Of a DNA stretch of 64,000 nt, positions 7,601-53,700 are shown piece after piece; positions within the stretch are counted from its first letter, which is position 1; the number at the start of each line of letters is the position of its first letter. Location: assembly GCA_964059195.1 (NCBI GenBank), contig CAXKWD010000005.1:91959882-92023881 (forward strand), written 5' to 3'. The notes beneath the pieces were generated by a model that was not told the DNA's origin, did not search any database, and saw nothing but the letters and a program-made list of their open reading frames with translations. The DNA is from Ectobius pallidus. Taxonomy: Eukaryota; Arthropoda; Insecta; Blattodea; Ectobiidae. Both the position numbers and the translations under genes were made by a program.

Positions 7601-10600
7601 TTCAAATTATGATAACAAATAGCCTACATATTAATTACGTAAATTATATTATAGATCTGTCACGTTGTTCATCCTGCACGTCATTGTTGACAGTGTATTT
7701 TGATTCTTTGCCTTATATGGCAATATACGACTTCAATTTATTGTAGGTCTATGTAGCGTCAATTACTGCAGGATGGACTTCATTAAACAAAACAAAAAAT
7801 TCAGGAGCATTTGGAATTGAAGACACCGTGGGTACAGAGGTTTTATTTAACGAGTTTTTATAGGATTTCATAAACTGTCTGTTTTCGGCGTGTGTCAAGC
7901 ATATACGGTAATTTTCACTCAAATATTTTACATATTTTGTTACTAGGTTTTCTTGTCAACCATTAATGACCTATTTTATACACCAGAAATCATTACAACA
8001 GAATAACATATAAAAATATTACATTAAAGTAACTTGAAACATAACCACACCAGAATCACGAGTAAGCCAGTAGACCTACAATAAATATTACTTATTTTCG
8101 TTCTTACCTTTCTGGATGTTTCAAGAAATGCAATTCAGGATTTTGTCTTTTATTAATACTGAAATTTACAGCAGAATAATAAGGTCCTTTCGAATATAGC
8201 GTGTTCTAATAAATACAACACTCCTATTTATTTACATACTTCCCGGAGTAGTTTCTGTAGTCTTACTATATGGCCACTACGATCGCTAGTAAATGCGCGC
8301 GCATGCTCGGCTGGCAGAAAAACGGGCTGAGTTTCTGTACTGTATTAATACTTATACTGTGGTATTACTCTGGCTTCATCAAATATTAGATATGTGCATA
8401 GGCTATATGCAATAGTCCAAATTTATTTATTTATTTATTCTTGGATCATATACATGATATCGGATAGGTAACACAAAGTAAATAATACGATTGAAGACAA
8501 ATAAGTAGCTCAACACACAAGTATACATAAACATATTGAATAATACTAAACAAGTAAAGACCAAACGGAAAAAGATTAAGAGGAAGACCTGCTATGAGAT
8601 GGAAAGACAGTACACATGACTCATCTGAGGAATAAAGGGGAAATAAACAGGATGCCATCCTACATCACAAGAATAAGAAGAGAAGAAGAAGGAGTAAATA
8701 AACTGGTTCGCTTAGAGTTAGATGCAGACAGGCTCATTCTCAAAGTCTGGAAGAATGTGAAAAAAAGTATGAAATACTTTTTCACCTGTACGAAGAACGG
8801 TAACCAACTAGTATTAAATATAGTCGTTTAATGCTCAATTTTAGTAATTATTTCATAGCAAGAGAAATCATTTGTTTGGAATTTAAACCTTGCTCTTGAG
8901 TATTTATGCCATAATTTAAGTTTGCAGCATTGATATTGACTGCTAAATTTTAATTTTAAATGTTTCAACAATGCAGATTCAGTATAAGAAATATGATTCT
9001 GTATATAACTATAGGCTTATAGATATTGCAGATTCCTTCTCAAGGTAATATTCTGTGTCATTTTAGGAACAGAGAAATGGAATCCAAGGAAAGGAAGTAC
9101 GATTTACAGAAAAAACAGTTGGATACCTTATTGGCAGATAAAGACAAATTGGAGCAAGATTTTGAAAAGTTGAAAGCTGAGCGTACAGTATGTATCTTTA
9201 AATGTACCTAGGCAGTTTACTCTGTCTCATTTAGAATTAGAATATTAAATTGATCCCATTAATCGTGTTGCAGAAACTGCAAATGATACAGGACAAGTCA
9301 AAAGCAAATGGTACAATACAGATAAATTAACAGAACTACAATCATAAATGGATTGTTGATTTTTATGAGAATTTTGGGCGAAAGTCAAAATACAAGGCGC
9401 ACTTTAAGCTCCGCCCACTCGATATTCACAGTTTGTTTCTCAGCGAAGCAGGGTACCAACCATCCTTGTATATTGTCACCGACACTCCCGAACGTACCAA
9501 ATATTAAAAATGTGAGAGTGCCCCTTGTACCAAATATTGAAACTGCGAGAGTGCCCTTGTACCAAATATTAAAACTGTGAGAGTGCCCCTTGTACCAAAT
9601 ATTAAAAATGCAAGAGTAAGTGCCTTGTACCCACAGGTTTGCCTTGTACCCATCAGTTTGTCAGACTGTTCATCCTCAAAGAATTCGCTAGATCGTGGTA
9701 TAAAAGGAACTGCTTCATTGAGGGTGGGTTGGGCGGGATATATCTCATGCGAAGAGCGCACCTTATATTTGTTTTTTCCAGAATTTTGTAATAGATATTA
9801 CAGCATAAAATCTACCCATGTAACTTAGTACAGTGGTATTAATCAGAGGTGACAGTCCAAGCATGGATGCGCAGTAGATGTAAAGCAGTCCATTAAATAT
9901 TCGTATTGCATGAAGGGGTATATGGGTCAGTTGTGTTGTTGCTTCCAGTGTGGTATGACCGTATAATGTAGTTAAGAAGCAAGAGACCTTATTATTAATT
10001 ATTAATAAACTTCGTTATGAAGCTTAGATAATTTCAACTAGTATAGTATAATTCAAATTTATGGTAAAGGTTCCACCTATATACTAGTAGTTTGTTTGAA
10101 CACCATATATGCTTGAATCCGATTAAGATTGTTAGGAGTTATTTTTATCTTCTAACCTAACTTAATATCTGGTGTTTAATGAAATATTTTCAGTTCTTTC
10201 ATATATATTGAACTTGTTGTTTTATTTGATGTAATTTAATGAGATGTATTAGGTTAGGTTAGAAGAAATTTTACTTCACAATATAACAGTTGAATTTTGT
10301 TCAGATTTTTTCTAGTTTATTTAGACTTTAATATGTTTGGTCAGTTATCGATTCGTTATTTACAAGTATCATATGTATACAGTATTAAAATTTATTCAAT
10401 TGTTTTCTAAAAACTATAATATACACAAATTTCATTTAAAATAAGTTACTAAAAAACAGTATTGAATATTTTATAAAATTGTAACTTACTTGAGCATGTT
10501 TAAAATATTCTAAAGTACATTTATAATATACACAAATTTCATTTAAAATAAGTTATTAAAAACAGTATTGAATAATTTATAAAATTGTAACCTACTTGAG

Positions 10601-13600
10601 CATGTTTAAAATATTCTAAAGTACATTTACAAGCAATTTTGTTGGTAAGCAATATCAATATTTGTCTATTTTAAGTACAAAATTGATAGTGCGTTCACTG
10701 TTGAAGAAAATTGACCTTCATGTATATTAATGTGAAAGTACGTAGAAATCTTATTTTGAATTTAATCCATAAACTTCTTTGTAGGAGTCATATAACATAT
10801 GTTAACTTTTAAAATGATTATTTCGGTATAATCGTACACAGTGGTTATTGAGTTATGATATATAACTCTTGTCGTTTGATACTCTATAATCTAAAGATTT
10901 TATACATTAAAAATGAGTATTTATACATTAATTTTAGTTTACAAAACTGAGTCTTATAACTTCTTTATAGAAAGTTCATATAAAAATTTTAACTTTCATA
11001 TGATAATTTCAGAATAATCGTATATAGTGTGTGTTGAATATGATGTATAACTCTTGTCGTTGAACACCTTATAATCCAAAGTTTTTACACATTTAGCTTA
11101 TTTGTTTTAATTGTGTTAGTCCTTGTAACAATTTCTTATAAAAAGTGGTTATGTCAGCTTTATCTTCAATCTATTCGGTGGCCAAGCAGAATGGTGCACA
11201 ATCAGACCTCACAGGCACCAGATCAAATAGCAGAACAACAGCTAGGACTGAAGATGACATGATTATGTCGAAATGCATATCCGAATAGATTGAAGATAAA
11301 ACTTACATAACCACTTTTTATAAGAAATTGTTACAAGGACTAACACAATTAAAACGAATAAGCTAAATGTGTAAAAACTTTGGATTATAAGGTGTTCAAC
11401 GACAAGAGTTATACATCATAACTCAACACACACTATATACGATTATTCTGAAATTATCATATGAAAGTTAAAATTTTTATATGAACTTTCTATAAAGAAG
11501 TTATAAGACTCAGTTTTTTAAACTAAAATTAATGTATAAATACTCATTTTTAATGTATAAAATCTTTAGATTATAGAGTATCAAACGACAAGAGTTATAT
11601 ATCATAACTCAATAACCACTGTGTACGATTATACCGAAATAATCATTTTAAAAGTTAACATATGTTATATGACTCCTACAAAGAAGTTTATGGATTAAAT
11701 TCAAAATAAGATTTCTACGAACTTTCACATTAATATACATGAAGGTCAATTTTCTTCAACAGTGAACGCACTATCAATTTTGTACTTAAAATAGATGAAT
11801 ATTGATATTGCTTACCAACAAAATTGCTTGTAAATGTACTTTAGAATATTTTAAACATGCTCAAGTAGGTTACAATTTTATAAATTATTCAATACTGTTT
11901 TTAATAACTTATTTTAAATGAAATTTGTGTATATTATAAATGTACTTTAGAATATTTTAAACATGCTCAAGTAAGTTACAATTTTATAAAATATTCAATA
12001 CTGTTTTTTAGTAACTTATTTTAAATGAAATTTGTGTATATTATAGTTTTTAGAAAACAATTGAATAAATTTTAATACTGTATACATATGATACTTGTAA
12101 ATAACGAATTGATAACTGACCAAACATATTAAAGTCTAAATAAACTAGAAAAAATCTGAACAAAATTCAACTGTTATATTGTGAAGTAAAATTTCTTCTA
12201 ACCTAACCTAATAGATCTCATTAAATTACATAAAATAAAACAAGAAGTTCAATATATATATGAAAGAACTGAAAATATTTCATTAAACACCAGATATTAA
12301 GTTAGGTTAGAAGATAAAAATAACTCCTAACAATCTTAATCGGATTCAAGCATATATGGTGTTCAAACAAACTACTAGTATATAGGTGGAACCTTTACCA
12401 TAAATTTGAATCAAGAGACCTTGTTACAACCGCTTCTCTTGCTAGTGCATTTCAACATTCTACCCTTCCCCATGCTTCTTCCACCTGCATCACTTCCCCT
12501 CACACTCATCTGGCTCTTGCCTCTGATTAATACCACTATATTATAATAAAATATGCAGAGTAGGTTCTCACTTGAAGTAAACCTGAATTATACAGCACAG
12601 TTGTGTTGCTGTTAATGCATCATACCTAGAGATCCGTGAAATTCACAAGACGCGATAACGTGAATTGTTCTTTCCAAAAATTTGTGCAGTATTTTTGTAA
12701 ACTTCAACCCCTAACCCGAAAAACGTTTTTTGAATTGTAAAATAACAAATCCTCAACATAACATGAAAAACAGATATATTCCAGGTTTTTAAATGAATTT
12801 GAACAAAATAAAAAGTAAAACTGACAAATCCTCAACATAAATGAATTATTTAATAATATTTTCATAACTTTCATTCTTATCTCAATGAAAAATATAACGA
12901 AAATTATTTCAAGGTCAGCAGTGCACCCAACTGCTTGAGAGCAGCAGCCAAAGAGAAAAGAATTTAGAAACAATCTGCGACTCCAGAAACATTTCAATCT
13001 TGAATGTTCAAACTATCGTAGTTTGCTCCACAAATTAATTCGCGCAGGCAATTTTGGGGGTATGGAATTTATTAGTGAAAGCTAAGCAGTTCCTTGTTAT
13101 TAGAAACCATTGTGACTGTTACATGGACTGTCGTAACCTAATCAAGTAGCCTGTCATAGCCTAATTGTGATATTTAAAATAGTTCCATAGTAGTTTTAGA
13201 AAATAACATTCATATAAATTAATCAATCAATTAATGTGTAACATAGTGTTTGGTGTTTAGTGTTACCTTTTTCAGAAGTAGTGGCTTATTAGACAAAAAG
13301 GTAAACCTCCAGCACAGCTGTCTAGTTTACTTGTGCTCCTTTTGCATTTAAAACTTGATTTGGAAGGTCGTTTTCATATTGTTTTTTATTTGTGAACTAT
13401 TAACTTGGCTTTGAAAAGAGCCGTGCAAGCTTTAAAAAATGTTATATATTACTGAAATGTGGATGCATGAAAAATATGATTTGGTACTAGGGTCCTCATG
13501 CAATTCCACCATCTGCCATGTTGGTGCTGGTTGAATGCGGCAGCATTGTGATAAAGCAACACTCTGGTGTGAAAGCAGCACATGTGCACAGCCAATAGTA

Positions 13601-26100: not shown

Positions 26101-29100
26101 TGCACAGCAACCCAGTAGTGCATCTTATCCCTGATGTAATATGTGCTAGGACAGAGAGTTCACAATAAGCATAACATTCTACAAAAATATCTGCCCCAAA
26201 TAACGCACTACTTCCTCAGCTGTTTTAGTGCCCATGCTAAGATTCAAAGAAGCCTGCTCCAGGATATCTTTCCTTCCCTCAGTCCTTCCTTTCTTTCAGT
26301 TCTTTTCTTCTTAATTATGAAAATTTTATATCTTATGTAATTACTCTTTAAGGGGGTAGTTACATCTTATGATCTTTGAAAACTGGTTTTTAAAAATATG
26401 CAGCCCATTTTAAAGTTCATTTTGGTGCAAAAATTATTTAAATATCTGCATTATTTTTAAAAATATGAGTTTAAGTGCAAGATGCTGTTCTTTGCTATAC
26501 AGAGACTAGCTTAAAAGACCCGGCGTCGCCCGGGTTTTGTATTTTGTAAGTGGAAATTAACATATGAAGGATTTTCAATTTTAAATTCTAGGTCCTTATA
26601 TAGGCATTTATAATTTGAAATAGGAAGAACGACTTATTACACTCAAACTATTCCCTCAGAAAACGCTTGATATAGTTTTTTATGGCTCATAGAGGATCTA
26701 GAATTTTGCATCCCATCGCTTGTACAGTGCACAGCAAGCCTGGTAGAGGTTTAAATAAGAAGAAACAGAAATTCCAGTAACATAAAATTGTAATATCGAG
26801 GCGGGAAATTTCCCACTCTTATGTTACCACAAAACCGTTTTGGAGATGAAATTAAACAGAAAGCATTAAAGCTTTCATACTTTTCTCTCCAAAAACCTGC
26901 GATATAATATAATAATATACACATTACCATACCTCGTTTTGTTTTCTCTATGTCCAGGGTAGAGAAAGTTATGTGATTCCATTATTTTAGTGGATTTCAT
27001 TCTGTAATATTTATTTATAACATGAATTATTTTGATAACTTCTCTTATTTGTCAAAAGTGCATTTCATTTGTTTTTTCCAAGTCCACCTGATACCATTTG
27101 GCAACAATATATTCTGTGATTTGGAATTGATAATTATATGTAAAAAGGGATTAAGTATTTTCAAAAACATTTAATTTTTGGCCTTTAGAATCAGAATTTT
27201 TCAAAATCCTTTCTTAGTGAGCACCTACATTATGCAACGAAGGTACTGTCAAAATTCCAAGTCTCTACCTGTTATAGTTTAGGCTGTACGTTGATTCCTG
27301 TCATTCAGTCAATCAGTCAGTCATTCGTTCAGTCAGTCAGGACAAAGCCTTTTATATATATAGAGATAACAGTTACCTCTGTAATTTACTGTTATGTGTT
27401 TAAGACACTTTTCTTGCAGACTACAGTTTCTCATTTTTAAGCTTTAAAATGATGACCCCCCCCCCCCCCCCCCAAAAAAAAAAATCTTTGAGTTTGGGAA
27501 ACAAGTAACTGCCATTTTGAATAATTCATTTATAAATTTAAATGGACATTAAAAATTTAAAAACGGTCTTAATATGTTTCTAAAAGCCTGGGTTTTCAGT
27601 GCATTAATTTGCACTGTATGAGCCATGTACACTAAGGGGAAAGAAAAAAATATTGAACACGGTCTATACTTCGGTGCTTTAAGCACTATCTGCCCCAAAA
27701 ATTTTATTTTTTATGTAAAAAGTATCTTGCATGCGTTTTATATTGAAAACTAATATCATTCCTTTTCTTTCTTTATTTCCTAGCTGGAGAAAGCATTATT
27801 ACATGAAAAGAGTAAGGAACTTGATTCATTAAAGATAACAGTGCAAGCTCTAAACTGTGATTTAACTTCTGCAAATAAGCAAGTAGATCAGCTGGAGCGG
27901 AAGGTGGCAGATCTGCAAAAGGAAGTGAAACAGCTAAATGACAGTCTGCATGATGTAAGGAGCGAAAAAACGTTGCTTGAAAATGAATTAGATGAATTGA
28001 AGAGAAAGGCCAGCAATCTCGAAGTGGTAAGTACAATGCTGTTTCTTATATTAACGTAGGCTATAGTGTATAAATACTGTAACAACTTGACAGATAACCA
28101 GCTTCAGAACAGACTGGATAACCGTAGTCTAATCTAATCCAGAATCAATGCATTGATAGTGTTGTGCTAATGAAATTGACAGTATTTTAAGTGCAATTTT
28201 TTTTACAGTGAAGTGATACTATAAATGGAATAATAGTATATGGTTGGTTTTTTTACACTCAACTTCACTTGCGTGTCAGACATTAGCTAGTGATTGAAAC
28301 CATGGTTCTAGAAAAAAGAAAGAAGAAGAAAAAAAGACAAGTTATGAAGTTGAGTGTAAAAAAACGGACCATACAGTATCGTTTCATTTAAAAAGAATTT
28401 GCTTTCAAATATGAAAAAGCAGTTTTGATTTTTTTAAATCTATGTATCAATATTGAATTATGTTGAAACATAAGCATATAGCCAAGAATTTAAGGTTAAG
28501 ATTTCAAGGTAATGCAGATATTTTCTATTTAATATAATTCACATTTGCCATTACCTGTGCTAACGTAATTAATAAATTTTCATGTAATCTTGTTTGCCTT
28601 AGTGAGTATAAGGAATTATTTCGTGTAACATTGAATACTTTCATGCTTAAGAGAGCGGCCATCTTTGTTTATAAGCATAGTTCATCAAAAGCTCACTAGA
28701 GGTGCTGTGATCGATTCAGCACCGCAAACATAACACGAATTAAGCCGAAACTAGCTCAGCGCTTGAAATCTAGCGAATTATGAATTTCGATACATTGTGT
28801 GATCGGAATTTAGAAACTTCATGCGGATTCATAAAGAAGGTGATCAAAATTCATGCAGTAAATGAATGCAACATTTTCCATACGTTAAATCAATAGTTTT
28901 CCGTAATGACGTTTCAGCATGAAGCTTGTCAAATATTTCTAAATTCACTCATTGGAAAACGCAAACACGGATCTTACTACGACACTCGTCCTTAACCTCA
29001 CTTATTCATACATAATTTCAGTACATAGACTGTTTGACTAAACAATTAAGGGACAAGTCTTTGTCTTTAATTAGGGACTTCAACTAATGAATTTTATGGT

Positions 29101-32100
29101 AATTCTGATAATGACGTAATGAATTAACCTTATTGGTGAAACCTAACTCAGGGCGGCAAATCTCGTCGAATCAGAATTAATATGACATAATTTGTTTATG
29201 TTATACTAATTGCGCAATCAATGCGTATAAAAATCCCTCGGGGCGATTCACGCCCGCTTTTTCGCCAGTAACCTTCTGAAGAACTGCACGCCAGTTTGTC
29301 GCTGATTTTCGACCAAACAAAGACATGGTTACCAGCTAGTCTCAGCTACCATGCATCGTCAATGTGGCGATGTGGCCACTTACAACATGAATATTAGTTT
29401 CTATTAATAAATTTCATATACTGCGCTTCGCCTATATATATAATATTACTGCTATAATGTAGTGTGTTCTACTACGCTTCGCCTTCATACAACACAATAT
29501 GTAGTGCATCGCTCATAACCTCCAAGTGCTTCACAATATAACACTGTACAACATGTAACTACTGTATTTCATTATTCTTCTTGGCAAGGTTGTACAACAC
29601 TGGAAATTTATTTCACCAAATCTTGGTGATGGAAATTATTATTCATTGCACATGCCAACGTGACTAACATCAAGATTGTGTCAGTCATCGCATCAACCTC
29701 AAGTCAACTTCAAGAGAACAATACTCAAGAAGATCTAAATCCATCAAGCATTCGAGTCAAGACCGCATTTCAAACAGTGTTAAATCTCTTCAATTTTACT
29801 TGGTTTTAATTTTATATTATGTAATCAGTGATTTTAACAGTGATCAGTGCTTTCTCCGCTCACTTTACTAACAAATAGCAACCTCCAGTATTTAACTTAA
29901 TAAATAATTACTAACTCCAAGTTTTGTGAACTTCTTATTTTTTTTTGGTTTTCGATGTAGGGTCCAAATTCATTTGTTTATCCTTTTCCCCTTTCCTTCT
30001 CATACGGTCCATCTTACTAGAGGCCTTAAACCCTACATGTTGGTCCTCCGGCCCTTGGATCCTTCCAGTGCATTGTTTGATCCTTCAGCCGCACGTGTTC
30101 TCAGTGCAGCATTTAAATAAATCTGGAGCTTGCTAGTTTGTTAAGTTCACCTGTTTTTTTTTTTTTTTTTTTTTTTTTCTAAATGAGTGCAGTGCAGTGA
30201 ATAATTCTATAGGCCTACCGTGCATTTTTAAAGTGTTCAATTCAATTTATTCCTGGCATATTGCTTAGCCAGTTTGAGTTAAGGTAAGCAGTGGCATGCG
30301 CATGCCCAGTGAGTTGCATGTAAAGTGTTAGTTTTTAAGGTTAGGTTGTGCAGCCAACGCCTAACACAATACTCAAACACAAGTTACACTTACACTTGCA
30401 ACATTACGCTCAAGTAATACATTATTATTACTCATGCCTTTATAGCGACAAAGTGCTAGGCAACTCAACACATAATCATTTTCACATCACATAGTGAAAT
30501 CTTTGCTAGGCCCCAGTAAGCCAAGACGCAGGCGAGCGGAGTTTAACTTATAGATATTTGCTCTCATTGTATTCATTTCAAAATGGCGACTGTAGAGTCA
30601 AACATTAATACTTTGAAGTCGAAGCGTGCTCCACTAAAGGCTCAAATTACTCGCCAAGTGAATCACATCTCAGGCTATGTGATCACTAACGAAGCGTCCT
30701 TTCAAGAGCTTCTCTCTCGAAAGGAAAAACTACAAGAAACCCATAAGAGGTTTGAGGAAATACAAACTCAAATCACTCAATTAGATTTCTCAGAGGCCGA
30801 ACTGGAATACGCAGATTCGGTAGAAGATGCAGTTCTTAAAGCTGTCTCGTATGCCAAGGGCCTAATCAAGGCTCATGAAGACAGCTTACTCCAAGCCGCT
30901 GCCCATGAGGAAGCGCAAATCAATCTTGCTAAACTTAACCGTGTCAAGTCTCAATTGGACGAGTACATTCAAACCATATATGAATTTGTCATCCAAGACG
31001 AGCTTTCCTATCAAGAATGTCTTATCCTTCGCGGTGAGTTTCAAAATATATTTGATGAATATAAGATTCTGCGATCCCAATTTCAAGAGATTGAAGAGTA
31101 TCAGGGTGTTGAAGTAAACAGTCGTAAGGCTCTGGCTTATCTCAATTCTCTAGTTACTAAACACAAGGAGATCTATCAACCTGAGCATTCCTCTAGTAGT
31201 CAACGTTGGTCGTTAGATACTCCACCATCAACGTTACCAAAATTGCCAGAGATTAGACTTCCACGGTTCTCAGGCGATCCGGCAGCTTGGATCGAATTTC
31301 GTGACACCTTTACCTCTCTAATTCTTAATAATCAGCATATTTCAGAAATGGACAAGTTTCAGTATCTGAAATCTTGCCTAACGGCTGAGGTTATGTCAGT
31401 CATAAGAAACATCCCAGTTTCATCAGCCACTTTCGACATTGCATGGCGTACGTTGTCAGAAAGGTTTGACAATGATCGTCTTATCGCGAACACACACCTG
31501 GAACATTTGTTCGCGCCTCCGCATCTTGAAAGGAATAATGCAGAATCCCTGCAGCAATATCTAGACCACTTCGTTAGTACTGTGCATGCGTTACAGTCAC
31601 TCAACACGGATGTTAGCTTGACAGACTTAATCATCTCTAAAGTTGTTCTTGATAAGCTTCAACCTAACATCATTAAAGATTGGGAATCTTCTATCAAACA
31701 GGACAGATTACCCTCTCTTCAGGATCTTTTCAACTTTCTTGAAACCAAGGTGCGGGTTCTCCAAATGACTGATTCAGCCATAAAGTCACAATCAAATAAT
31801 AATTCTCAGAATAATGTGAAGACTACTCCTACTACCACCCCAAATAATACTAGGAATAAATCCAATGATCATTCTCGTTGCATTTGTTGCAAGAAGCTCA
31901 TGGTACATAACCTATTCTATTGTGATGCTTTCAGAGCAATGGATCTCAGGCAACGAGACCAATTTGTTCGATCCCACAAGATATGTAATGTTTGCCTTTC
32001 GCCAAAGGGTCATTCTTCTTACTGCAACACTTACAAATGCAAAACCTGTTCCCTCAGGCATAGCATTCTTCTTCACGATCCAAATGCCCAACCGGCTAAT

Positions 32101-35100
32101 ACTGCTGGTGTTGTAGCTTCTCGTACATCACAGCAGAGCTGTTTATTGCCCACAGCTACAGTTCTCATTAACGATTCCAATGGTTATCCAGTCGAAGTAA
32201 CGGCGTTGCTCGATACTGGTTCCACTTGTAACTTAATTAGCAGTCGATTGTCTAATCGTCTTCATCTGCCACCCTATTCTCAGCGTACTACACTCACGGG
32301 AATAATTTCTTCCCAAGTGAGTACTCATATAGTGGTACCAATTTCAATCCATTCCAATGCGACTTCTTGGTGTTATGATACAGATGCCATCGTCGTACCA
32401 GAAATCATTACCACAAAACTACCTAGTAAACCAATTGATACTCGCACATGGGACGTTCCACCCAATCTTACCCTCGCCGACCCACATTTCCACACTCCCA
32501 AATATGTTGATCTTTTACTTGGAGTGGAAATCTGTTCCCAAATTGTCTGTCCAGGGCAAATTACTGCCCCGCAGCTACCTGTCATGCAAAATTCTTACTT
32601 AGGTTGGTATGTTTCTGGAAAATTGCCTCCAGCTGATCCTAGTGAAAAATCTCGATCTTCAAGACGATTCCATTCAGGTCGTAAGTCATCAACCACTCCC
32701 AACAACATTCCTTCCACGCATGTGACTTCGTCACATTACTCTGCTTTTCTAACTTCGGACCAGGCTGTTAGCGATCAGTTAACTAAGTTCTGGGAGTTAG
32801 AAAAAATTTCCAATGAAGCCCCCTTTCCCAATGAATCATTCTGCGAACAACATTTCGTAGAAAACACTACAAGGGATTCTGAGGGTAGATACATTGTTAA
32901 ACTGCCGTTCATTGCTGAACCAGAAACTCTTGGTAGTACTAAACTACAAGCTAATAAGAGACTCTTATCCTTAGAAAGGCGTCTAGCTGGCAATCAATCT
33001 CTCTCTACTGAATATGTTAATTTCATGGCGGAGTACGAACGCCTAGACCACATGGAGCCAGCGGACCCTACTATTCACTCTTCCTTCGACTACTTTATTC
33101 CACATCATCCAGTCTTGAAACCTTCAAGCACTACCACGAAACTTCGCGTGGTGTTTGACGCTTCAGCGAAGTCGTCAAACGGCAAATCCTTTAATGACAT
33201 ACTTGCCATAGGTCCTAAGGTTCAACCCGACTTGTTCTCTATCTTGTTGCGTTTCCGCCTAAACCCCATTGCATTTATAGCGGACATCGCTAAAATGTAT
33301 CGTCAAGTTATGATACATTCTGACCATCAGCCATTCCAGCAAATCTTGTGGAGAAGCTTGCCTACTGACCCAATCAAAGTTTTTAACCTGAAAACTGTCA
33401 CGTACGGTACTGCTTCTGTTTATCCATTCCCAGACCAAGATGGCATTCTAGGTGAACGCCTTGAACGGTCTGAACTGCCATTTGATCCTGGCGGATACTC
33501 TTTATGTTCTCACTGGAACACGCAACAACACTTTGTACCATTATTGATCAGATTCACCCAGGTCCAGATGGCTTGGTGCGAGTCGTAACAGTTCGGACTC
33601 CCACCGGTCTGTACAAACGCCCCATTGTCAAACTAGCTCCATTGCCTATTGAAGACGAATAAACTCATTCAAGCTTCAGTATCGATGTACTTACAATTTT
33701 CAATCACTAACTTTCAATTAATTCATACATTCAACAGTTTTATACATTGCTTCATTCCCATATATTATGGGTGATTTCTGGAGCCCCAGGGTTGCGATTC
33801 CAGCATCTCCTCGGCAGTTGTTTGACCTCTCGCTCTTTCCTGACAAAGTTTATTGAATACTTAATCAAAGGAGCGTCTAAATTTGATCTAAATCCGTTCT
33901 CGGACGAACCTTTGTGAAAATTTATCACCCCTTTCATTATAATCGACGGAACTTGGCAGGCAACCCCTCAGGTCGACCTGACCTTATCGCGACGCCACGA
34001 GCGTCATTGAACATGTCCCCCAGGGCACTAAGCCTGTTGGTGTCTTGGGTTAAGTCACTCGTGAATACTTGGTATGTTCACCAGTGTCTATTTCTACTAC
34101 TATTTTCCATTTTTCATTATTTTTCATATTGTCATGTGCATTAAATGGATTGAACGCACCGCGTTTCAATCCAGCAGGCGAGTATGTTGAAACATAAGCA
34201 TATAGCCAAGAATTTAAGGTTAAGATTTCAAGGTAATGCAGATATTTTCTATTTAATATAATTCACATTTGCCATTACCTGTGCTAACGTAATTAATAAA
34301 TTTTCATGTAATCTTGTTTGCCTTAGTGAGTATAAGGAATTATTTCGTGTAACATTGAATACTTTCATGCTTAAGAGAGCGGCCATCTTTGTTTATAAGC
34401 ATAGTTCATCAAAAGCTCACTAGAGGTGCTGTGATCGATTCAGCACCGCAAACATAACACGAATTAAGCCGAAACTAGCTCAGCGCTTGAAATCTAGCGA
34501 ATTATGAATTTCGATACATTGTGTGATCGGAATTTAGAAACTTCATGCGGATTCATAAAGAAGGTGATCAAAATTCATGCAGTAAATGAATGCAACATTT
34601 TCCATACGTTAAATCAATAGTTTTCCGTAATGACGTTTCAGCATGAAGCTTGTCAAATATTTCTAAATTCACTCATTGGAAAACGCAAACACGGATCTTA
34701 CTACGACACTCGTCCTTAACCTCACTTATTCATACATAATTTCAGTACATAGACTGTTTGACTAAACAATTAAGGGACAAGTCTTTGTCTTTAATTAGGG
34801 ACTTCAACTAATGAATTTTATGGTAATTCTGATAATGACGTAATGAATTAACCTTATTGGTGAAACCTAACTCAGGGCGGCAAATCTCGTCGAATCAGAA
34901 TTAATATGACATAATTTGTTTATGTTATACTAATTGCGCAATCAATGCGTATAAAAATCCCTCGGGGCGATTCACGCCCGCTTTTTCGCCAGTAACCTTC
35001 TGAAGAACTGCACGCCAGTTTGTCGCTGATTTTCGACCAAACAAAGACATGGTTACCAGCTAGTCTCAGCTACCATGCATCGTCAATGTGGCGATGTGGC

Positions 35101-38100: not shown

Positions 38101-41100
38101 CTTGACATCTTCGCGTTTCAAATCAAGCCGACGACTCACGTTTTCATCAACGGCTCACATTTTTAATTAAAATATTTTCCGTGGATAAAAAAATACAATA
38201 TATTCAAATATGAGTTAATTTAAAGTAGAACTTTTACATTTGCCCGTATTTCGCGTAAAAATGGGATAAAACCTTAAAAATCGGGTATTTCGCGAAAAGT
38301 ATCACATTTCGCGAAACTTCGCGAATGAATAAATACATATTTTGAATAAAAAACACGAGAAACGAATTTATTACAGTAATTAGAACTTCTATTACTAATT
38401 TCGTGTTTTGGGGATTAACGAAATGTGACTATCCCTAATCATAAGTAATAATGCAAGTGTCTTTGTAATATGATTTTCTAAAACCTGATAACGATATTGC
38501 AATGAAATCTTCTCTACTGCGACCTTTGGCTGGCAGGATTGTGAAAACAGGTGTTGTAGCACTATAAACTGCAGATAATAGTGGGCAGATTTATACTATA
38601 CTGTATGCAAAACAAACTTTACACTTTTCGAGTTTACAGAGATCGAGTTTTCTATTTTTTAATTTATCTCTCACCTTTCTTGCATCCAAGAAGTCTTGTT
38701 TTGTGTTTATCAGCATATGGTACTTTCACATTTTTTGTTATTCATACCGTTATTAAATTGTATTGGAAGTTAACACAGTGAAGTTATGTAACATTATAAT
38801 TAAATAATATGATAAATTTAACACAAACCATCACTTTTGGTATAGTTTACCTGTACTAGTTTCGGCGCCTTCGCTACCATTGTCAACAGCTTTACTTCAA
38901 CTGAGCGAAGGCACCAAAACTAGTACAGGTAAACTATATCAAAAGTGAAGGTTTATGTTAAATTCAACTCATTATATAATTATTATATTCATACCTTTTC
39001 GTATGTTATGTTACCTTTAGATTTTTTTCTTTGTATTATGGATTAATAAATATTTATTCAAATTTGTGGATAAAATAAATACATAATATAGGTGTCCAAT
39101 TGAACTCCTAAAGTCTGTCTTCAGTTAAGCACTTGTTTTCAGTGCAGATGACCTCATGCTCTTAGCGTTTCTGGTTGAGTGCAGCATCAATTAGTATGAA
39201 CACTTTTCTGTAGGCAGAGTCAATTAAAAAATAGTTTAGAAATAATTAACTGTGTATTGTGTCAAATTTCTATGTATGTTATCAGTAGACACACTAATAC
39301 GAGGGCTATATTTTTTCAACCTCCAATGGGGCATAAAATGAAAACCACAGTGAAAATCAAAACTGCTTTATTTGGAATATTTAGGTACACCTTCTAGCTA
39401 CTTCTCTACATAGTCGCGCTCTGATTGAGACATTGGTCAAAGCGTGATGCAACTTTCAAATAACCTTTTCATAGAAGCCTGGTGCCAGAGTATTGAGAAG
39501 GGTCTTCACGGCATTTTGAAGTGTTTTGAAATTCTTCGTTGGTGTGGAAGCGTTGTCCTCCCAGATCTTTCTTTTGCTGCCAAAAAAGATGAAAGTCACT
39601 CAGCACAGGAACGAGTTTTTTAAATCCATCATGACAGGGGATGAAACGTGGATTCGTTACGACAATCCAGAATCAAAAGAACAATCCAAACAATGGACAC
39701 ACAAATTTCCCGAACAAACCCAAGATCTGGCTTCCACACCAACGAAGAATTTCAAAACGCCGTGAAGACCCTTCTCATTACGCAGCAAGCTTCTGTGAAG
39801 AGGGTATTTGAAAGTTGCATCACGCTTCGACAAATGTCTCAATCGAAGCTCGACTATGTAGAGAAGTAGCTAAAAGGTGTACCTAAATGTTCCAAATAAA
39901 ACAGTTTTGATTTTCACTGGTTTTCAATTTATGCCCCATCAGAGGTTAAAAAGAAAAAGCTCTCATATTAACACACATACTTCATTAAAAAGGTGTTTTA
40001 CCTTCAGACATGCTTCAAGAACTTAATTGTTCTCTTCCTCAGCAGCATAAGTTTCAGTATGAAGTGTATTTTTGAAAGTAAAGTGGTCCTGATACTTCTT
40101 TTTTTTTTTCTTCTTACAGAACTACAACGTACTGAAGGATGTGTGCACAATGAATGATGAGCAGCTAGAGCATTATGAAAGGGTTATTGAGTCTCAAAAA
40201 CAAATGGAATTGGCACACAGTAATGAAAAGTAAGCTCCTATTGAAATTAAATTGCACTTTTTGGTTTTATATTTTTATCCAGTATATATTATATACTGGT
40301 ACTATGTGTGTGTATATATATATATATACTGGTACTCATAGGCTTAACCAGGCCGACCATATGGGGGGGGTTATAACATCTGGAGAGGGGGGTTCCAGGG
40401 TCCTCCCCCCCGAAAAATTTTAACAATTAAGATGCACAATAAAGAGTTTTAAGCTTCCCACGCTTTAAACTCATATTAAGTAATTTATAAGCAGATTTTT
40501 AAAAAAGGTGATATATCACAATAATGAAATAAATAGTACAATTTTCCCTTTTTTAATTAATGGGGGGGGGGGGGCTCAAACACCCAAACCCCCCCCCTCG
40601 TTACGCCTATGCTGGTACTGTAGGGAAAAATGGTACATTGCGACTCACCCGAGTCCCCCACCCCTACTCTCAATCCGAAATAGCCTATTTTGTTGCAAGG
40701 GTGTTTTTATAATTATGAAATATTATGTGGAGGTGCAAGGGTATTTTTTTTTTTATTGTGAAATATTAGGTGACATGGCAGACGAGTGGAAAGGGGAGCA
40801 GGGTGAGTCGCAAAGTACTAACTTCCCATACTGTATATGTAAGTAAAATCGCAAGCTTTCCTGTGGCTTCACATTGATCTTTGTTGAAAAAGATTAAATC
40901 ATTTCCGTTTTCAGAAGGAGTGTTTGTTGTGGGTATTTCAGCTTTTCTATTAACCCCATTCAACTGCTTGTGAATAAATGATTGTTCATTCCTTGGAAGG
41001 TTTTAAAATACAATTTTTTCGTATTACTATTATTTATTATAATAGTTACACGATTTGCTGATATATTCACAGAACCTAACACATATTACCTCGATGTTGA

Positions 41101-44700: not shown

Positions 44701-47700
44701 AGTAACAATGCTGTATTAGTACCAAATATTTGTGATGTAGAGAGTTTGCATGTACCGTATATGTGCATGGGTATAACTTTATTTAATTACATAAAAACCT
44801 TTGTTATTACATACATGCTTCACTAAATATTTACCTGTTTTTATCAGGACAGATCTGTTTCCGCCATTCTCATGGCCATCGTCAGCTGTTCTCGATTTCT
44901 TGGTGTTGTGTTGCCATCTGGTGGAGGGTGGAAGAATCTTGTGATGAGGCTCTTTTCTACTGGGATGTCGAAATTCATTACTATTTCCTTGTTTTTTTGT
45001 ATGAATAGTTTTTCCCAAACTGTTAACTCTGTATGTTTCCCTATATGTTTCAAAAGTTTAGCTTTATCATTTATTTTGTGGCCTTCTTCCCAATAATGAG
45101 TAGCCACTGCTGACTTTTCTATTTGCTGGAACTTTATATTGCGAAAATGCTCTTTTACTCGAATACCCATATTTCTCCTCGTTTGCCCAATATATATCTT
45201 ATTGCAATCATTGCAGTTAATCTGGTAAATTCCTGATTTGTTGCTTTCCGGCTCTTTATCTTTATGTTTTGACTTGATTAATGTTTTGATGTTGAATCTG
45301 TTTTTTGGTGCTAATAATATACCTATGGATACCTTGTTAATATACCTATGGAAAAAACAGAATATACTGAAGAATACATTCATATAGTGGACATAGCAAA
45401 AGTGAACGGTTTCGGCAAAGATCTCATAGATAAGAAAATTAAGAAATTCGAAAAACAAAAAGAAATTAAGGAGATCTGCACTTTATTATTTATTATTTTA
45501 TTTGCTTTCTTGATTACAAGATTGCCTAAATGACAAAGCTTACTGTGCTTCTATTAACAATGAAGTATAACACACCCAACAGTTTGAGAAAAATTCAACT
45601 TAAAGTTAGAAGTTACCAGATATTACGAATTCAATAATTGTATCATAATTGAAGTAGATAATGCATAACTTTAAAAAAAAATCAATTATACAAGTGATGG
45701 CGCAATAATGAGACAGATCCCTTCAGTGCCAGTTTCGAAACTTGTAGAATGGTGGAATTAGGAATCCCTAGTCTCTTGCACACAGTCACGAAAAAAGATG
45801 GAATGCTGCCCCGTGCTCCAATCAGAAGACCGATGACTTCTATTTTTTTAAGTTTGTATTTGGCCATATAATACGGTGTTGTAGGCTGATATATGGCTTG
45901 CTTCTCTTCATGAACCTCCTGAGGCTGATTGAAATGAGATTCCATTCTTATTGTCGGGTCGAGGATGTAAGCAGCAGCAGAGTTCTCTTTGTAGGCAATA
46001 ATGTCAATACGTCGAACACTTCCTTTCTCTGCTAAACCATGAACTTCTTCATGGACTACATAGCCAACTTGCCGGAGACCGTTTGCAATGACAGTCCTGA
46101 TGGAGTGGTGACAGGATACAGAACGATATCATATCACCTATGGGCTAACAACAGGTTTCAAAAAATTTTCAAAGAAGTAAATATAAAACTAGCACCAAAA
46201 AACAGATTCAACATCAAAACATTAATCAAGTCAAAACATAAAGATAAAGAGCCGGAAAGCAACAAATCAGGAATTTACCAGATTAACTGCAATGATTGCA
46301 ATAAGATATATGTTGGGCAAACGAGGAGAAATATGGATATTCGAGTAAAAGAGCATTTTTGCAATATAAAGTTCCAGCAAATAGAAAAGTCAGCAGTGGC
46401 TACTCATTATTGGGAAGAAGGCCACAAAATAAATGATAAAGCTAAACTTTTGAAACATATAGGGAAACATACAGAGTTAACAGTTTGGGAAAAACTATTC
46501 ATACAAAAAAACAAGGAAATAGTAATGAATTTCGACATCCCAGTAGAAAAGAGCCTCATCACAAGATTCTTCCACCCTCCACCAGATGGCAACACAACAC
46601 CTAGAAATCGAGAACAGCTGACGATGGCCATGAGAATGGCGGAAACAGATCTGTCCTGATAAAAACAGGTAAATATTTAGTGAAGCATGTATGTAATAAC
46701 AAAGGTTTTTATGTAATTCAATACCACTTCACTGTGTAATTCCCAAAAATAGTTAAATATAACTTTATTTGTTTTGTTTTCAGAAGTTATAGTTGTAATT
46801 AAAAAATAAGTTATTCATGCTTATTTGTTTATGGCACAGGTGGCAGAGCTTGAGGATAGATGTTGTTCCATAGAATCTGAACTGCGGAACACTCAGCGAC
46901 AATTGCATGCATCAAAAGAAGAAATAATTGGTCTCAAAGAAGAAAATACTCAGCTTCTCACCCAAGTCAATAGTGTGAAGGAGACCAATTTCCAGTTAAA
47001 TCAAGACTTAGAAGATGCTAATGATCAAATTCAACAACTCAGACTCAGGTATGCATTTTCTTTGTCAAGTATGATTTTCTGGTATACCATTAATTCTTGT
47101 TGCACATTGACTCAAGTTATAGGGATCATGGCCAAGTCCTGTGTAAAAATGTCATTTCCAGAAATGACCAAGCACATTAAGAAATCATGTTTACCCTAAT
47201 TTTAAGGGTCTTATTCCCCTCCCTCCAAGAATGAAAAACAAGAAAATAAGAGCCAACAATGTGGTGCACTCCTACAAAGCCACTAATATAGAGCCTCTGG
47301 ACCAAATTTCATGTACCTTGATGTCAAGTAATACCTTAATTGCCTCTATAGGGACACCGCTGAAACATTGCACTTGGCATTCTTTTTGTTGGTAGCATTG
47401 TAAATTAACAGAGAGAAATGCTACTGGCCACTCCTTTTGAACCAATCACTGCATAGCTTTATTTTATTAATATGAGTTGATTAACACACTTGGACTTCAC
47501 TTACCAATCATTTGGTAGGACGCGTTTCACAGGCCATTCGCCTGTATCTTCAACTACATGTCAACTGGGGAATCTTCGGTGTTTGGAGGTTCTCCCTGTT
47601 CCCCTAGTGTCGGTTTAATGTACTTAGCTATTAGGTTGTCTTCTTTCGGAATATCAAAATTCATGAGTCTGTTTTCGAATTTTTTCATGTAAATCCTTTC

Positions 47701-50700
47701 CCAAATCCAGAGTTCTTTAGGTGTTCTTACAGACTAATAATTGTGCATCTCTATTAATTTCATGCTTCTTCCCCCAGTGATGTGCAGCTACCACCGAGTT
47801 TTCTATTTGTTGTAGTCTAATGTTCCTAAAATGTTCATTCACCCTGATATCTATGTTCCTTCTGGTCTGCCCTATGCATACCGTGTTGCACTCCTTACAG
47901 TCTATTTTGTACAGAGAGAACCTCCAAACACCGAAGATCCCGCAGTTGACATGTAGTTGAAGATACAGGCGAATGGCCTTTGAAATGCGTCCTACCAAAT
48001 GATTGGTAAGTGAAGTCCAAGTGTGTTAATCAACTCATATTAATAAAATATTGATTCACTTCACTGTGTTAAGTTCCAACTATTTACAATATTTATAATA
48101 CTGCATAGCTTATCAGCAGTCAATCTGTCATGACTATTGTCCTATTGTTGATTTTTGGTTTGATACCACATTCATTGCTCATGAATTCTACCACATGACT
48201 GCAGTTGTAAGTTTACGTAATATTCACTATTAATATTACAATTGTTGACAGAAGACAAATTTTTTTTTATTTGATGTCAGCATCCCAAAGGATAAATTTG
48301 TGGAAGCACTAAAAAGTTGGCTATTAACAACAAATTCAAAAAGAGATTCTATTGAAGAATATCTGGAATTAACAAAATTACGCATTAGTCAAAATTTTTT
48401 TCACATTCAGGGGAAAGTATTATGAACAAAAATCAGGCTTGGCAATGGGTAGACCATGTGAATAAGAAAGCATCTTCTTTGACTCATTTTCCTTTCAATA
48501 CAGCTTTGCTACTGTTATACTATTATGTGATGCTACTACAAAGCATCATGCTATATTGAGCCGATATGGTACAAAATGTCTAAATTCAGATGAGAGGAGT
48601 AAAGTATTCAAATAATATTTAATCAATAAGAATTTCTTCTTCACACATATTTTGTAAGTCTAAACTTACCAAAAGGACGATTGTTTCGGTGAGTGACTCA
48701 CCGGTGAGTGAAGTCACTCACCGAAACGATCGTCCTTTTGGTAAGTTTTGACTTAACAAAATATGTGTGAAGAAGAATATTCTTATTGATTAAATATAAT
48801 ATACACTTCACAATGTTTTCCCGATTAATTTAATCATATTCAAATAATACCCGCATCCCAGTTTTTCGTTTGAGAATTTTTTTAATATTCAGGTAGTATT
48901 CGAGTATATACAGTATGTAAAATTCAATATGCATTTTTGAAAAGATTGCAGGTCGTAATACATAGTCCAGTCATTTGGTGCTCAAAAAGGGGGTTACCTG
49001 GAAAGTTTTCCGGGAGTTTTGAAAATTGGTGATTTTATAGATTTCGACGTGCTCTTTTCGAATTTTCACTTTGCTACCTCGTATCTTTGCCGCTCGCGCC
49101 GCCATATTGAAAAAATGGCGCGCAAAAACAGTTTTTTCACAATATCTCCTTTACGATTCATTTCACGATGAAAATAGTTATGTAATAAATTAAACTAGAG
49201 AACATTTCCTATCATTTATGTAGTAACGATTTTTTGTGTGAAATGGATAGTTTCAGCGTACGAGCGCCGCCAAGTCTACTCCGACACGCGTTTTGGCTAA
49301 AGCCACGGAAGATGCGGATACGCTAATAACAATCAATACGGCAATCAACACTTCATCTACATTTGATTCCGTAATAGTTGTCGGCAAAGATGTAGATCAT
49401 CTTATTCTTTTGACGGCTCTATCTACGCGTTCAGAGAGAGAAAGACACACACACACATGTATATAATATATTCTCAAACCAGGAAAAGGGAAAATTTCGC
49501 AACGAATATATTCAACAAAAAGTATCGTAGACAAAACAGCCGCAGATAACATAATATTATTTCCGCACGCCTTCAGTGGCTGTGATACAACATCAGCACT
49601 CTTTAAACAAAGAAAAATAAAATGTGCTAATGTATTAAAAAGAAAACAGAATTAAACGAGCTTGTCCAGGTATTCAAAAACCAAAATGCAGATCCAAAGT
49701 TCATTGCTGAAGCTTCCTCCTTGCATTGTATGGTTACAGTGCCGTGAAAAGTGTGTCGTTAAAAACAACTATAGATATACATGCTTCACAAAATCAGCAT
49801 ATGAAAATAAATTTAATATTGCATCGCTGCCACCGACGGAAGCAGTAGCACGACAACATTCGTTCCAAACCTATCACCAGGTTCAGCAGTGGTATGGAGT
49901 TGAATAGGCCTATTTTCGTTGCGAAATTTTTTGTATTCCTGGTTTGAGATTATTTAGGCTATGTTTGAACGCGTAGATAGAGCCGTCAAAAGAATAAGAA
50001 GATCTACGTCTTCGCCGACAACTGTTAGGGAATCAAATGTAGATGAAATGCTGATTGCCGTATTGATTATATCAGCCTAGAAAAAAGACGAAAATTTCTG
50101 CAGTAAAAACGAAAATAGGTGTGTTTGATTAAATTCGCTGTGCTAAATTCTAAAATGCATTTCGTTTTTCTCTATCACATCTGGTTAATAGACATTTGTG
50201 AAAAATATTATTTTGACATTTTGTATAATAAAATAACTGTATGCAGCTTTGATGCTGGATTTGAAACTTTTTCCTTTGCGGTAAGTGGTGTGATAGGCGA
50301 TCTTAACCAATTTTGGGTCATTGAACATGAATCCGTTGACCGTTTCTACGTAACACGTAATGTTTTCTTGCATAGGTACTTCACAACGAGAGATATAAGT
50401 TATTGCTTAGACTAGCTTACAGGATAAAAAATACTTAAAAATTAGGATAATTTTGATAATATTTTCGGGGAAAAATCAAATAATATTTTCAAACAGTCCA
50501 AGAAGTATGTATTCCAGTATTTTTTGTGAGTGCAGGCCAAATAAATTAATTTTTGTCAAATTTTCTGATGCCGTACAAATAAATGCTCAGTGACAAAAAA
50601 ATCGAAGTTTGTTTGAGGGGGAAATATTAAAGATTTGAACTTTTGGGAATTTTTACATTGGTTATAACCTAAAATCTATAAAATATATTTTAGTTGAGCA

Positions 50701-53700
50701 AATGGTATCTTATTTATCTTATTACATTGATCGAGCTGAACGGTTTTGAACATGTATTTTAATAAATCTAAAATCTATAAGTTTGCCAAATTTCAAGTTT
50801 CTAGCTCATCTGAAAGTGAATAAACATCATTGTTAATAAGTGGAAGATTAGACTGTCGTAGATGTGAATGATGTCACGGCTATCCAGCAAGTTTTTCTAT
50901 ACTTATGGGGCAGCTAGAAACACCAAATTTAGCACGCCCTTTGACTGTTGTATGTGCCAAAATTCCTACCAAATTGTATGGTTCTATCTTTCATACCATG
51001 TGTGCCAATATTACATAATGTGAGAAAAATATACAGAATTTATTTAAAATAAAAAAATCTAACTCAATCTAAGGGATAACCGATGAAGATACGTCAAAAA
51101 GTCATAAGACTAAACTTGTAGATCTCTAAAAATCCGTTACTGCTTCTGCAACAGGTTTTTTATACGATTTACCGTTTAGCTACTATAAGCCCCCAAAAAG
51201 GTCTACACAGACCTTAAAATTGCGTCCGCCATAACAGCAAACACAAAAACTAGATGTGAAACAACAAAAATAATGACATTTTTGAAATCAGGAGACCTTC
51301 TTTAGTTAAAATCGCTCATTAAATGCTTTACCGCAAAATGATGCAGGTAGTGGCGTATCCGCATCTTCCGTGGCTTTGGCCAAAACGCGTGTCGGAGTAG
51401 ACTTCGCGGCGCTCGTACGCTGAAACTATTCCATTTTACAAAAAAATTGTTACTACATAAATTATAGGAAATTTTCTCTAGTTTAATTCATTACATAACT
51501 ATTTTCATCATAAAATGAGTAGGGAAAGGAGATATTGTGAAAAAACTGTTTTGGGGCGCCATTTTTCCAATATGGCGGCGCGAGCGGCAAAGATACGAGG
51601 TAGCAAAGTAAAAATTCGAAAAGAGCACGTCGAAATCTATATAATCACAAATTTTCAAAACTCCCGGAAAACTTTCCAGGTAAAACTACCAAATGACTGG
51701 ACTAACAGTCAAGAACAAATATGTAATGTACAATAATAATTAAAATGAAGTAATATACACAGTGGAGCACATGAATAACTGAACGAGTTAAATATTATAT
51801 TAACACTTAATGCTTCACTTACGTCGCTGTTTATGAGCAGGACATGTTTCGGGATTCTTATCCCATCTTCGGCTGCTGGTCAACTGGCAATTGGCGATCA
51901 TGGTTAGTGGTCTTTATGGTTTGTCCAGTGCTGCCCTCTCTTCTCTTGGCTGTAAGCTTGATGACATCATCCACCGGCGGTATTTCAAAATTCATAACAT
52001 TGCTGCTGTTCTTAGTGATGAAAATCTTCTCCCAGGTGTTCAGTTCTGCCCGTGTCTTGACGTGTTTTAATAGTTTAACATCCTTTTTGATGTAGTGGTT
52101 TTGTGTCCAGGAGTGATGTGCTACAGCTGATTTGTCCGTTTGCATGAATTTCACATTCCTAAGGTGTTCATTCATTCTAGTTGTTATATTTCTTTTGGTT
52201 TGTCCAATGTAGGTCAGCTGGCAGTTTTCGCATTCCATCTGATAGATTCCTGATAGTTCTGTTTTGGGTGTGATGTCTTTTAGTGGGTGATTGAGCAGAT
52301 TTCTAATGGTATATTTGTTCTGGGGTGCTAGCTTGATGTTGTAGTTTTTGAATACTTTCTCGAATTTGTAGAATGTTTTTGGATGGTAGGTGAATTTTTT
52401 GTAATTTTGTGGTTTTTTCTCTGAATTGTCTAATGTACTAATTCCTTTTATCATTTTTTGTTTCTTGTGTTTTGAAATCATCTTGTCTATGAAATTGGTT
52501 TTGAACCCGTTGGTAAGTGCTACTTCCTGTGTGCTGATATTCCTTGTTGTATTCTATTTCACTCAGTGGAATGTGTGTTAGCCTATGGATTAAACTATGA
52601 AAGATGGCAAACTGGTGAGGTTTCAGATTGAACTTGTTGTGTTTAATATAGTTGTCAACATGTGTGGGTTTCCTGTAGACCCCAAACTCTAGGTTCTGCT
52701 GATTTCTAATAATTTTTAGGTCAAGAAATGGTAAGTATCCGTTTTGTTCAGTTTCGATGGTGAATTTTATTGAACTGTCTTGTAGGTTCAGTAATTTAAC
52801 CGAGTCTTCTATGAATCTTTTTGGTACAATAGCAAAAATGTCATCGACATATCTCCACCAGCCTTTGAATATACTGTATGAGGAAAAACTCTGGTCACGT
52901 GTAGTTCCAAATTTCTCATATACACAAATTGCTCCTGGACACAAAACCACCACATCAGAAAGGATGTTAAACTATTAAAACACGTCAAGACACGGGCAGA
53001 ACTGAACACCTGGGAGAAGATTTTCATCACTAAGAACAGCAGCAATGTTATGAATTTTAAATACCGCCGGTGGATGATGTCATCAAGCTTACAGCCAAGA
53101 GAAGAGAGGGCAGCACTGGACAAACCATAAAGACCACTAACCATGATCGCCAATTGCCAGTTGACCAGCAGCCGAAGATGGGATAAGAATCCTGAAACAT
53201 GTCCTGCTCATAAACAGCGACGTAAGTGAAGCATTAAGTGTTAATATAATATTTAACTCGTTCAGTTATGTAATGTACAGTTATGTATCTACTTATTTAT
53301 TATATGGCTCACACTATACAAAGGAAAATCATGTTCGCCAATCCCTGTCGACTCTTTGTGCGCTGCTGCCAAACTTGACAAAAGAAAGATTTCCTGTGAC
53401 TACTCCATGGAGATGCACGAATGCTCAACAGGGTTACTTAACATTCAAATCCTCACAGCTCAACAAGCTTGTGTCTTGAAAACATGGATTTTATACAGCT
53501 GGCTTAAGAAACAACATTTCTTTGTTCTCATGTATACCTGAAATTTTAGGTTTGTGTATAGTTTCTTACCGAGCAATTGAAATTGCATGGCTTGATGGAG
53601 TAGGGCTGAGTTACCTGAACTGGGCAATGTTGCCTCACTATCTTTCGCTACTCATACAGGATGGTCCCAATAAAGCCCCACTCAGTTTTCCTTCGTACAG

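Follow-up and report, generated by a model that had tools for sequence, protein, structure and literature searches.

In the parts of the report on the Poseidon element of Anolis carolinensis (PAc) considered here, both strands are cut and extended in vitro, reverse transcription is initiated at two neighbouring internal positions, which delimit the tail, and the hammerhead is dispensable for in vitro insertion, no RNA sequencing (RNA-seq) reads beginning or ending at its cut (PMC11167929). Metazoan retrozymes, according to the accessible sections of two articles, carry a type I hammerhead in a non-coding element and are probably mobilised by Penelope enzymes (PMC7229834, PMC7761336). For Penelope, the template strand, the head-to-head arrangement and the role of the hammerhead are stated to be open or unknown in the corresponding sections of three articles (PMC3846280, PMC7761336, PMC11167929). 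Here we analyse a 2.4-kb palindrome at positions 9991-12411 of a 64,000-nt stretch of the genome of Ectobius pallidus (Blattodea), the whole of which is called the window below. The palindrome belongs to an already known kind, that of the endonuclease-bearing, autonomous-type Penelope-like families, and we consider it quite probable that it is a 5'-truncated, coding-free insertion of such a family, made of two leaders laid down head to head by priming from both strands.

Judged from those same parts of the PAc report, the likeness to PAc lies in a hammerhead near the leader and a tail bounded by two start sites; a difference is that three insertions of the present family have arms at the hammerhead cut, whereas no RNA-seq ends were seen at the PAc cut. 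The endonuclease-bearing Penelope elements of Adineta vaga (Pen2a_Av and relatives), as far as the sections at hand describe them, have a leader of ~200 bp against ~1.1 kb here; also different from them are the coexistence of intron-free and intron-bearing copies and the lack of a coding region in the window copy. Retrozymes, as outlined in the sections mentioned above, are repeats of small size whose motifs are classical type I, whereas the motif here is minimal and the element is the leader, 1.1 kb long, of a coding family, and identity with a metazoan retrozyme was rejected on that ground. An arm of a Penelope element ending at a transcript start or at a hammerhead cut was not reported in the titles and abstract openings of the literature searched.

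A preliminary description of the window, made from the sequence alone, had reported a near-perfect palindrome with an 11-bp target duplication and a one-sided 60-bp tail, and these three features were all found again. The arms (10051-11178 and 11281-12411) are identical at 1116 of 1128 aligned bases in an arm-to-arm alignment, with 12 mismatches and 2 indels, a similarity far beyond chance; the loop is richer in GC (44%) than the arm (23%). The sequence CAAGAGACCTT is found exactly at 9980-9990 and 12412-12422, i.e. at the two ends of the palindrome, without a third occurrence in the window, and the tail (9991-10050) is confined to the left side. All 12 differences are private to one arm (4 to the right, 8 to the left), so that the same or a near-identical RNA probably templated both arms, with mutations occurring later. 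The features are as follows.

9980..9990, no strand: left target-site duplication CAAGAGACCTT, an exact match to 12412-12422.
9991..11196, minus strand: left leader copy, starting 14 nt past the hammerhead cut and with the tail at its end (right-arm and sister-copy alignment).
9991..10050, minus strand: one-sided tail, its outer end being the putative distal start of reverse transcription (from the two outer-end classes of sister arms).
11194..11196, no strand: GTG microhomology at the head-to-head junction of both copies (sister copies compared on both sides).
11194..12411, plus strand: right leader copy, tail-less, from the recurrent copy start at -86 from the cut (alignments and genome rows).
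11194..11244, plus strand: short first exon, after which, at 11244, an 83-nt GT-AG intron is absent (intron-bearing versus intron-free sisters).
11245..11282, plus strand: minimal hammerhead-like motif, with a predicted cut after 11279 (motif scan, copy haplotypes, folding).
11281..11284, plus strand: site, flanked by two CCG repeats, at which the right copy has lost 30 nt (comparison with L014, L023 and L030).
12412..12422, no strand: right target-site duplication CAAGAGACCTT, an exact match to 9980-9990.

The right arm had been thought to start at the cleavage site of the hammerhead, and this did not survive the comparison with sister copies. In L014, L019, L023 and L030, 30 nt that are absent from the right copy of the window stand between ..GCATATCCG and AATAGATTG (in a shorter form of the same flanks, 30 extra nt in other copies between ..ATATCCG and AATAG). 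The deletion falls between two CCG repeats, and it is because of it that the right arm appears to start at the cut. Most of the missing stretch is retained in the left copy, at 11170-11196; since the reverse complement of this segment is contained in sister copies, the left copy extends to 11196, 14 nt past the cut, and the right copy begins at 11194, 86 nt before it. The true junction of the palindrome is a 3-nt microhomology, GTG (11194-11196). The 30-nt loss, seen in the right copy only, may have been either a copying slip or a later event. A reading frame through the loop was also considered and rejected after sister-copy comparison, the frame being the wrong one.

A search of the genome (2.12 Gb, 410 contigs) with the tail and outer left arm as query, 40 of 990 candidates being scored, gave at least 41 matches with 88-100% identity, several of them as inverted pairs. 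Arm ends differ between copies, and the window copy, itself devoid of a coding region, is one of many 5'-truncated ones. Sister copy L030 continues upstream (L041) into pieces of reverse transcriptase and of GIY-YIG endonuclease, then hammerhead and leader as in the palindrome; the E-value is 8.6e-7 for RVT_1 (29.3 bits, under the curated Pfam cut-off of 29.6) and 9e-4 for GIY-YIG (19.9 bits, under the cut-off of 22.6). A related subfamily, ~84% identical, forms a tandem array of 7 units with a spacing of ~3,727 bp on C2. From these coding pieces and the tandem subfamily, the arms are the 1.1-kb non-coding leader, or pseudo-long terminal repeat (pseudo-LTR), of a coding Penelope-like family. 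Four marks of an endonuclease-bearing Penelope-like element were found in it: reverse transcriptase with GIY-YIG (at the sub-cut-off scores of L041); inverted head-to-head pseudo-LTRs with a one-sided tail and a short target duplication, in the window and in 8 further insertions; tandem or partial tandem units, in the ~84% identical subfamily; and a minimal hammerhead motif in the pseudo-LTR, by motif and haplotypes, Rfam giving no match. The affiliation to Penelope put forward in the preliminary description is thus supported by the pieces upstream of the sister leader. The undescribed non-autonomous class that it had proposed has to be abandoned, given a coding family, variable arm ends and a deletion in the window copy; variation of arm ends among other copies, for which it had recommended a genome search, was the very outcome that it had named as contrary to its proposal. 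In short, it had the structure right and the class wrong, and its cleavage argument was an artefact of the window copy. Symmetric tandem arrays of the family, with minus-strand and then plus-strand units ~3,650 bp apart, were also observed at G000:C3:81425718-81436878 and C4:157517183-157534342.

Evidence about the template comes from the 83-nt GT-AG intron, which lies just before the hammerhead in L021, L023 and L030 and is exactly absent from the window copy, L014 and L019. For a sample of copies chosen independently of their upstream content we used an 18-nt pattern just past the cut (100 of 104 places listed). The sample holds 88 rows, i.e. 96 minus 7 unrelated matches (L114-L116, L118-L121) and a duplicate (L040), several being two arms or units of one locus; five listed places, four tandem units on C2 and one on C4, lie outside it. 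Thirty-three rows are spliced: the start lies 85 to 87 nt before the cut in 22 of them (16 loci by hand count) and between -80 and -91 in another 5; the remainder are 5 shorter rows and 1 that reads through. Another 43 rows are unspliced over the entire stretch read and 12 end elsewhere. Read-through into the endonuclease gene was seen in all 29 unspliced copies with enough upstream sequence (L021, outside the 88, included), many of them units of arrays or pairs. Both arms are spliced in L045, L046, L060 and L070. Since copies with the -86 start are devoid of the intron, a spliced sense RNA was their template. The simplest reading of these copies is that an RNA starting at GTGC(A/G)CAATC, once spliced, would be the usual template of such arms, and the recurrent copy start at -86 is probably the transcript start.

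At their outer ends, sister arms are, in the left-arm coordinate, either tail-less (1127-1143) or tailed (1180-1188), and none lies between in 41 uncut rows (2 of 43 are cut by the locus edge, and overlapping loci repeat some of the 41). A hand count without repeats gives 14 tail-less and 23 tail-bearing arms. A target duplication of 9-15 bp (an exact match, which may take in 1-4 bases belonging to the element) flanks 9 of the 11 complete insertions examined, and each of these 9 combines one tailed with one tail-less arm. The layout that the preliminary description held to be common to the other Penelope insertions of the window was also recovered: inverted arms, one tail each and, by eye, 9-13-bp duplications at 38790-38989, 44780-46723, 47460-48050 and 51775-53269. 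For family D, the Penelope family of the insertion at 51775-53269, 591 places were counted and 100 listed, 65 of these on C1; among the matches listed, 46 of the 65 C1 places fall into 23 pairs whose members lie less than 1.3 kb apart, each pair being head to head. The two outer-end classes and the head-to-head pairs agree with the start sites and both-strand cutting and extension of PAc in the parts of that report considered here. As a separate observation, the tails of the first three of these window insertions share ACTTCACTGTGT(TA)A, which is not in the tail of the palindrome.

A plausible course of events for the palindrome would be the following. The GIY-YIG endonuclease would cut both target strands, 11 nt apart, and the 3' end at each cut would serve as primer for one complementary DNA (cDNA) copied from leader RNA; starting at the distal site, one cDNA would leave the tail, and the other, starting at the proximal site, would give the tail-less arm. 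Each cDNA would extend toward the 5' end of its RNA, so that the RNA 5' ends would lie in the middle of the palindrome: the right cDNA would reach the start of the spliced transcript (11194) and the left one would stop 14 nt past the hammerhead cut. The cDNA ends would then join through the GTG microhomology, and repair of the stagger would yield the 11-bp duplication. LINE-1 twin priming likewise uses two primers at the two target ends and leads to inverted arms and microhomology joints; here, in contrast, an arm can start at two fixed sites only, and the two arms span the same leader.

The hammerhead-like motif announced in the loop is present, while its exact reading had to be corrected, to GGA-CTGAAGA-T-GACAT/ATGTC-GAA-ATGCAT-A^TCC with a predicted cut after 11279. 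With Rfam no hammerhead was found in the window (gathering threshold; E up to 5) or in 9900-12500 (E up to 10). A relaxed motif scan gave a match at 11248, of the same architecture as 6 motifs of three other window Penelope insertions; as mononucleotide shuffles lead one to expect 0.4 such motifs per strand, this match alone proves little. Across the 88 genome rows, the whole motif is intact in 78 and 1 more differs in the stem II loop only; the others are three changed cores (L027, L052, L117), two rows truncated inside the motif and four that begin at the cut. Every stem pair stays paired in the 7 motif haplotypes, with one A-U / G-U / G-C series, and covariation amounts to one compensatory pair, a score reached by 82 of 500 shuffles and thus not significant. 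The relaxed scan also matches at 40042 (minus strand; resembles a Penelope fragment) and at 57935 (minus strand; may be chance).

The preliminary description saw in hammerhead-self-cleaved RNA the template of arms that start at the cut, within a non-autonomous Penelope-derived class. Other insertions lend it some support: four arms in three insertions (L042 with both arms, L043, L059) begin 0-2 nt from the predicted cut, whereas 13 scattered ends, by their density, predict 0.23 (for three insertions P is 0.0018, rising to 0.03 at threefold density), the 0-2 nt window having been fixed after the rows were seen. As the base before the cut is A in all four arms, as in the uncut sequence, microhomology may blur the end point. 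Family D has no excess at its own cut, 3 of 65 arms falling within 0-4 nt against ~1.8 expected from the other 24 ends (a count that leaves out three C2 pairs picked for a short gap). With the ends in L042, L043 and L059 on one side, and the post hoc window and the lack of excess in family D on the other, it is possible that hammerhead-cleaved RNA serves as a template. As a whole, however, this explanation is rather improbable: the coincidence in the window stems from a deletion, the majority of spliced arms begin at the -86 start, and the family encodes reverse transcriptase and GIY-YIG, hence is not non-autonomous. At ~155-215 of L051 there is an inverted mini-copy whose 3' end falls on the hammerhead cut or close to it, with a line-like flank and no clear target duplication; this end is possibly the 3' end of a cleaved RNA.

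A weaker contender is self-priming on an antisense transcript, by which a fold-back at the 5' end of the leader gives head-to-head arms; it was put forward for Adineta Penelope elements from palindromic junctions and intron retention, in the portion of the article that we draw on (PMC3846280). Unspliced copies would fit it, and it could still hold for these or for L028. For spliced copies it is contradicted, since a removed sense intron makes an antisense template impossible, and in four insertions both arms are spliced; moreover, in 9 of 9 insertions a tailed and a tail-less end accompany a direct duplication, which is unlike the product of one folded template. We regard it as a poor candidate for the palindrome. 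Near-perfect palindromes can also be assembly errors, and such an artefact is very unlikely here because the arms have private differences (right 4, left 8) and many loci share the build; the target duplication also speaks against it. Least credible of all is a foldback DNA transposon with long terminal inverted repeats, which would account for the long inverted arms and the target duplication but, as an RNA-free element with symmetric ends, is refuted by the spliced copies and at odds with the one-sided tail, the 9-15-bp duplications, the variable junctions and a leader common to a reverse-transcriptase family.

Some observations weigh against a two-leader insertion primed from both strands. 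L028 has two tails, inverted flanks and no target duplication: at 683-1849 it is a palindrome with both arms tailed and flanks that are also inverted copies, which fits a snap-back or a later inverted duplication. L025 is without a clear target duplication. L089, although spliced, continues into the endonuclease gene, the sole such copy seen, perhaps a seamless tandem junction. The query that yielded the loci of the tail survey itself contained the tail, a bias in favour of tails, not of a tail-less partner. For the coding pieces of the family itself, both Pfam scores fall slightly short of the cut-offs, and the L030/L041 copy is broken; the putative transcript start is placed from copy ends.

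With regard to its surroundings, a protein-kinase motif (L001) lies on the plus strand ~13 kb upstream of the palindrome, and at 59187 there is a weak C1-domain match (16.7 bits against a cut-off of 26.5). By resemblance the host gene may be that of citron kinase, and an intron is therefore the probable site of the insertion. Two identical 300-bp direct repeats (28459-28758 and 34183-34482) flank an open reading frame with DUF1759 and aspartyl protease matches, and the whole (28459-34482) is presumably a BEL/Pao-like element. Two further long inverted-repeat structures, at 48994-51683 and 55374-58644, have 330-500-bp arms with 1-3 kb between them.

Beyond this locus, one may tentatively propose that Penelope insertion in general is a two-ended target-primed reverse transcription, each strand using a different one of two fixed start sites and the cDNA stopping at the capped start of a spliced transcript or at a hammerhead-cleaved end, although the evidence so far leaves this a minority prospect. 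If it were true, the 5' ends of templates would stay recorded in the genome at the centres of such palindromes, and the hammerhead would contribute to template production in the living animal. With a removable intron, a sharp copy start, two outer-end classes and many palindromic insertions, the questions of template, orientation and hammerhead role become readable from genomic copies; where arms are spliced, this speaks against an antisense template for the copies concerned. Taken as a whole, the family makes a good test bed for the study of Penelope copying.

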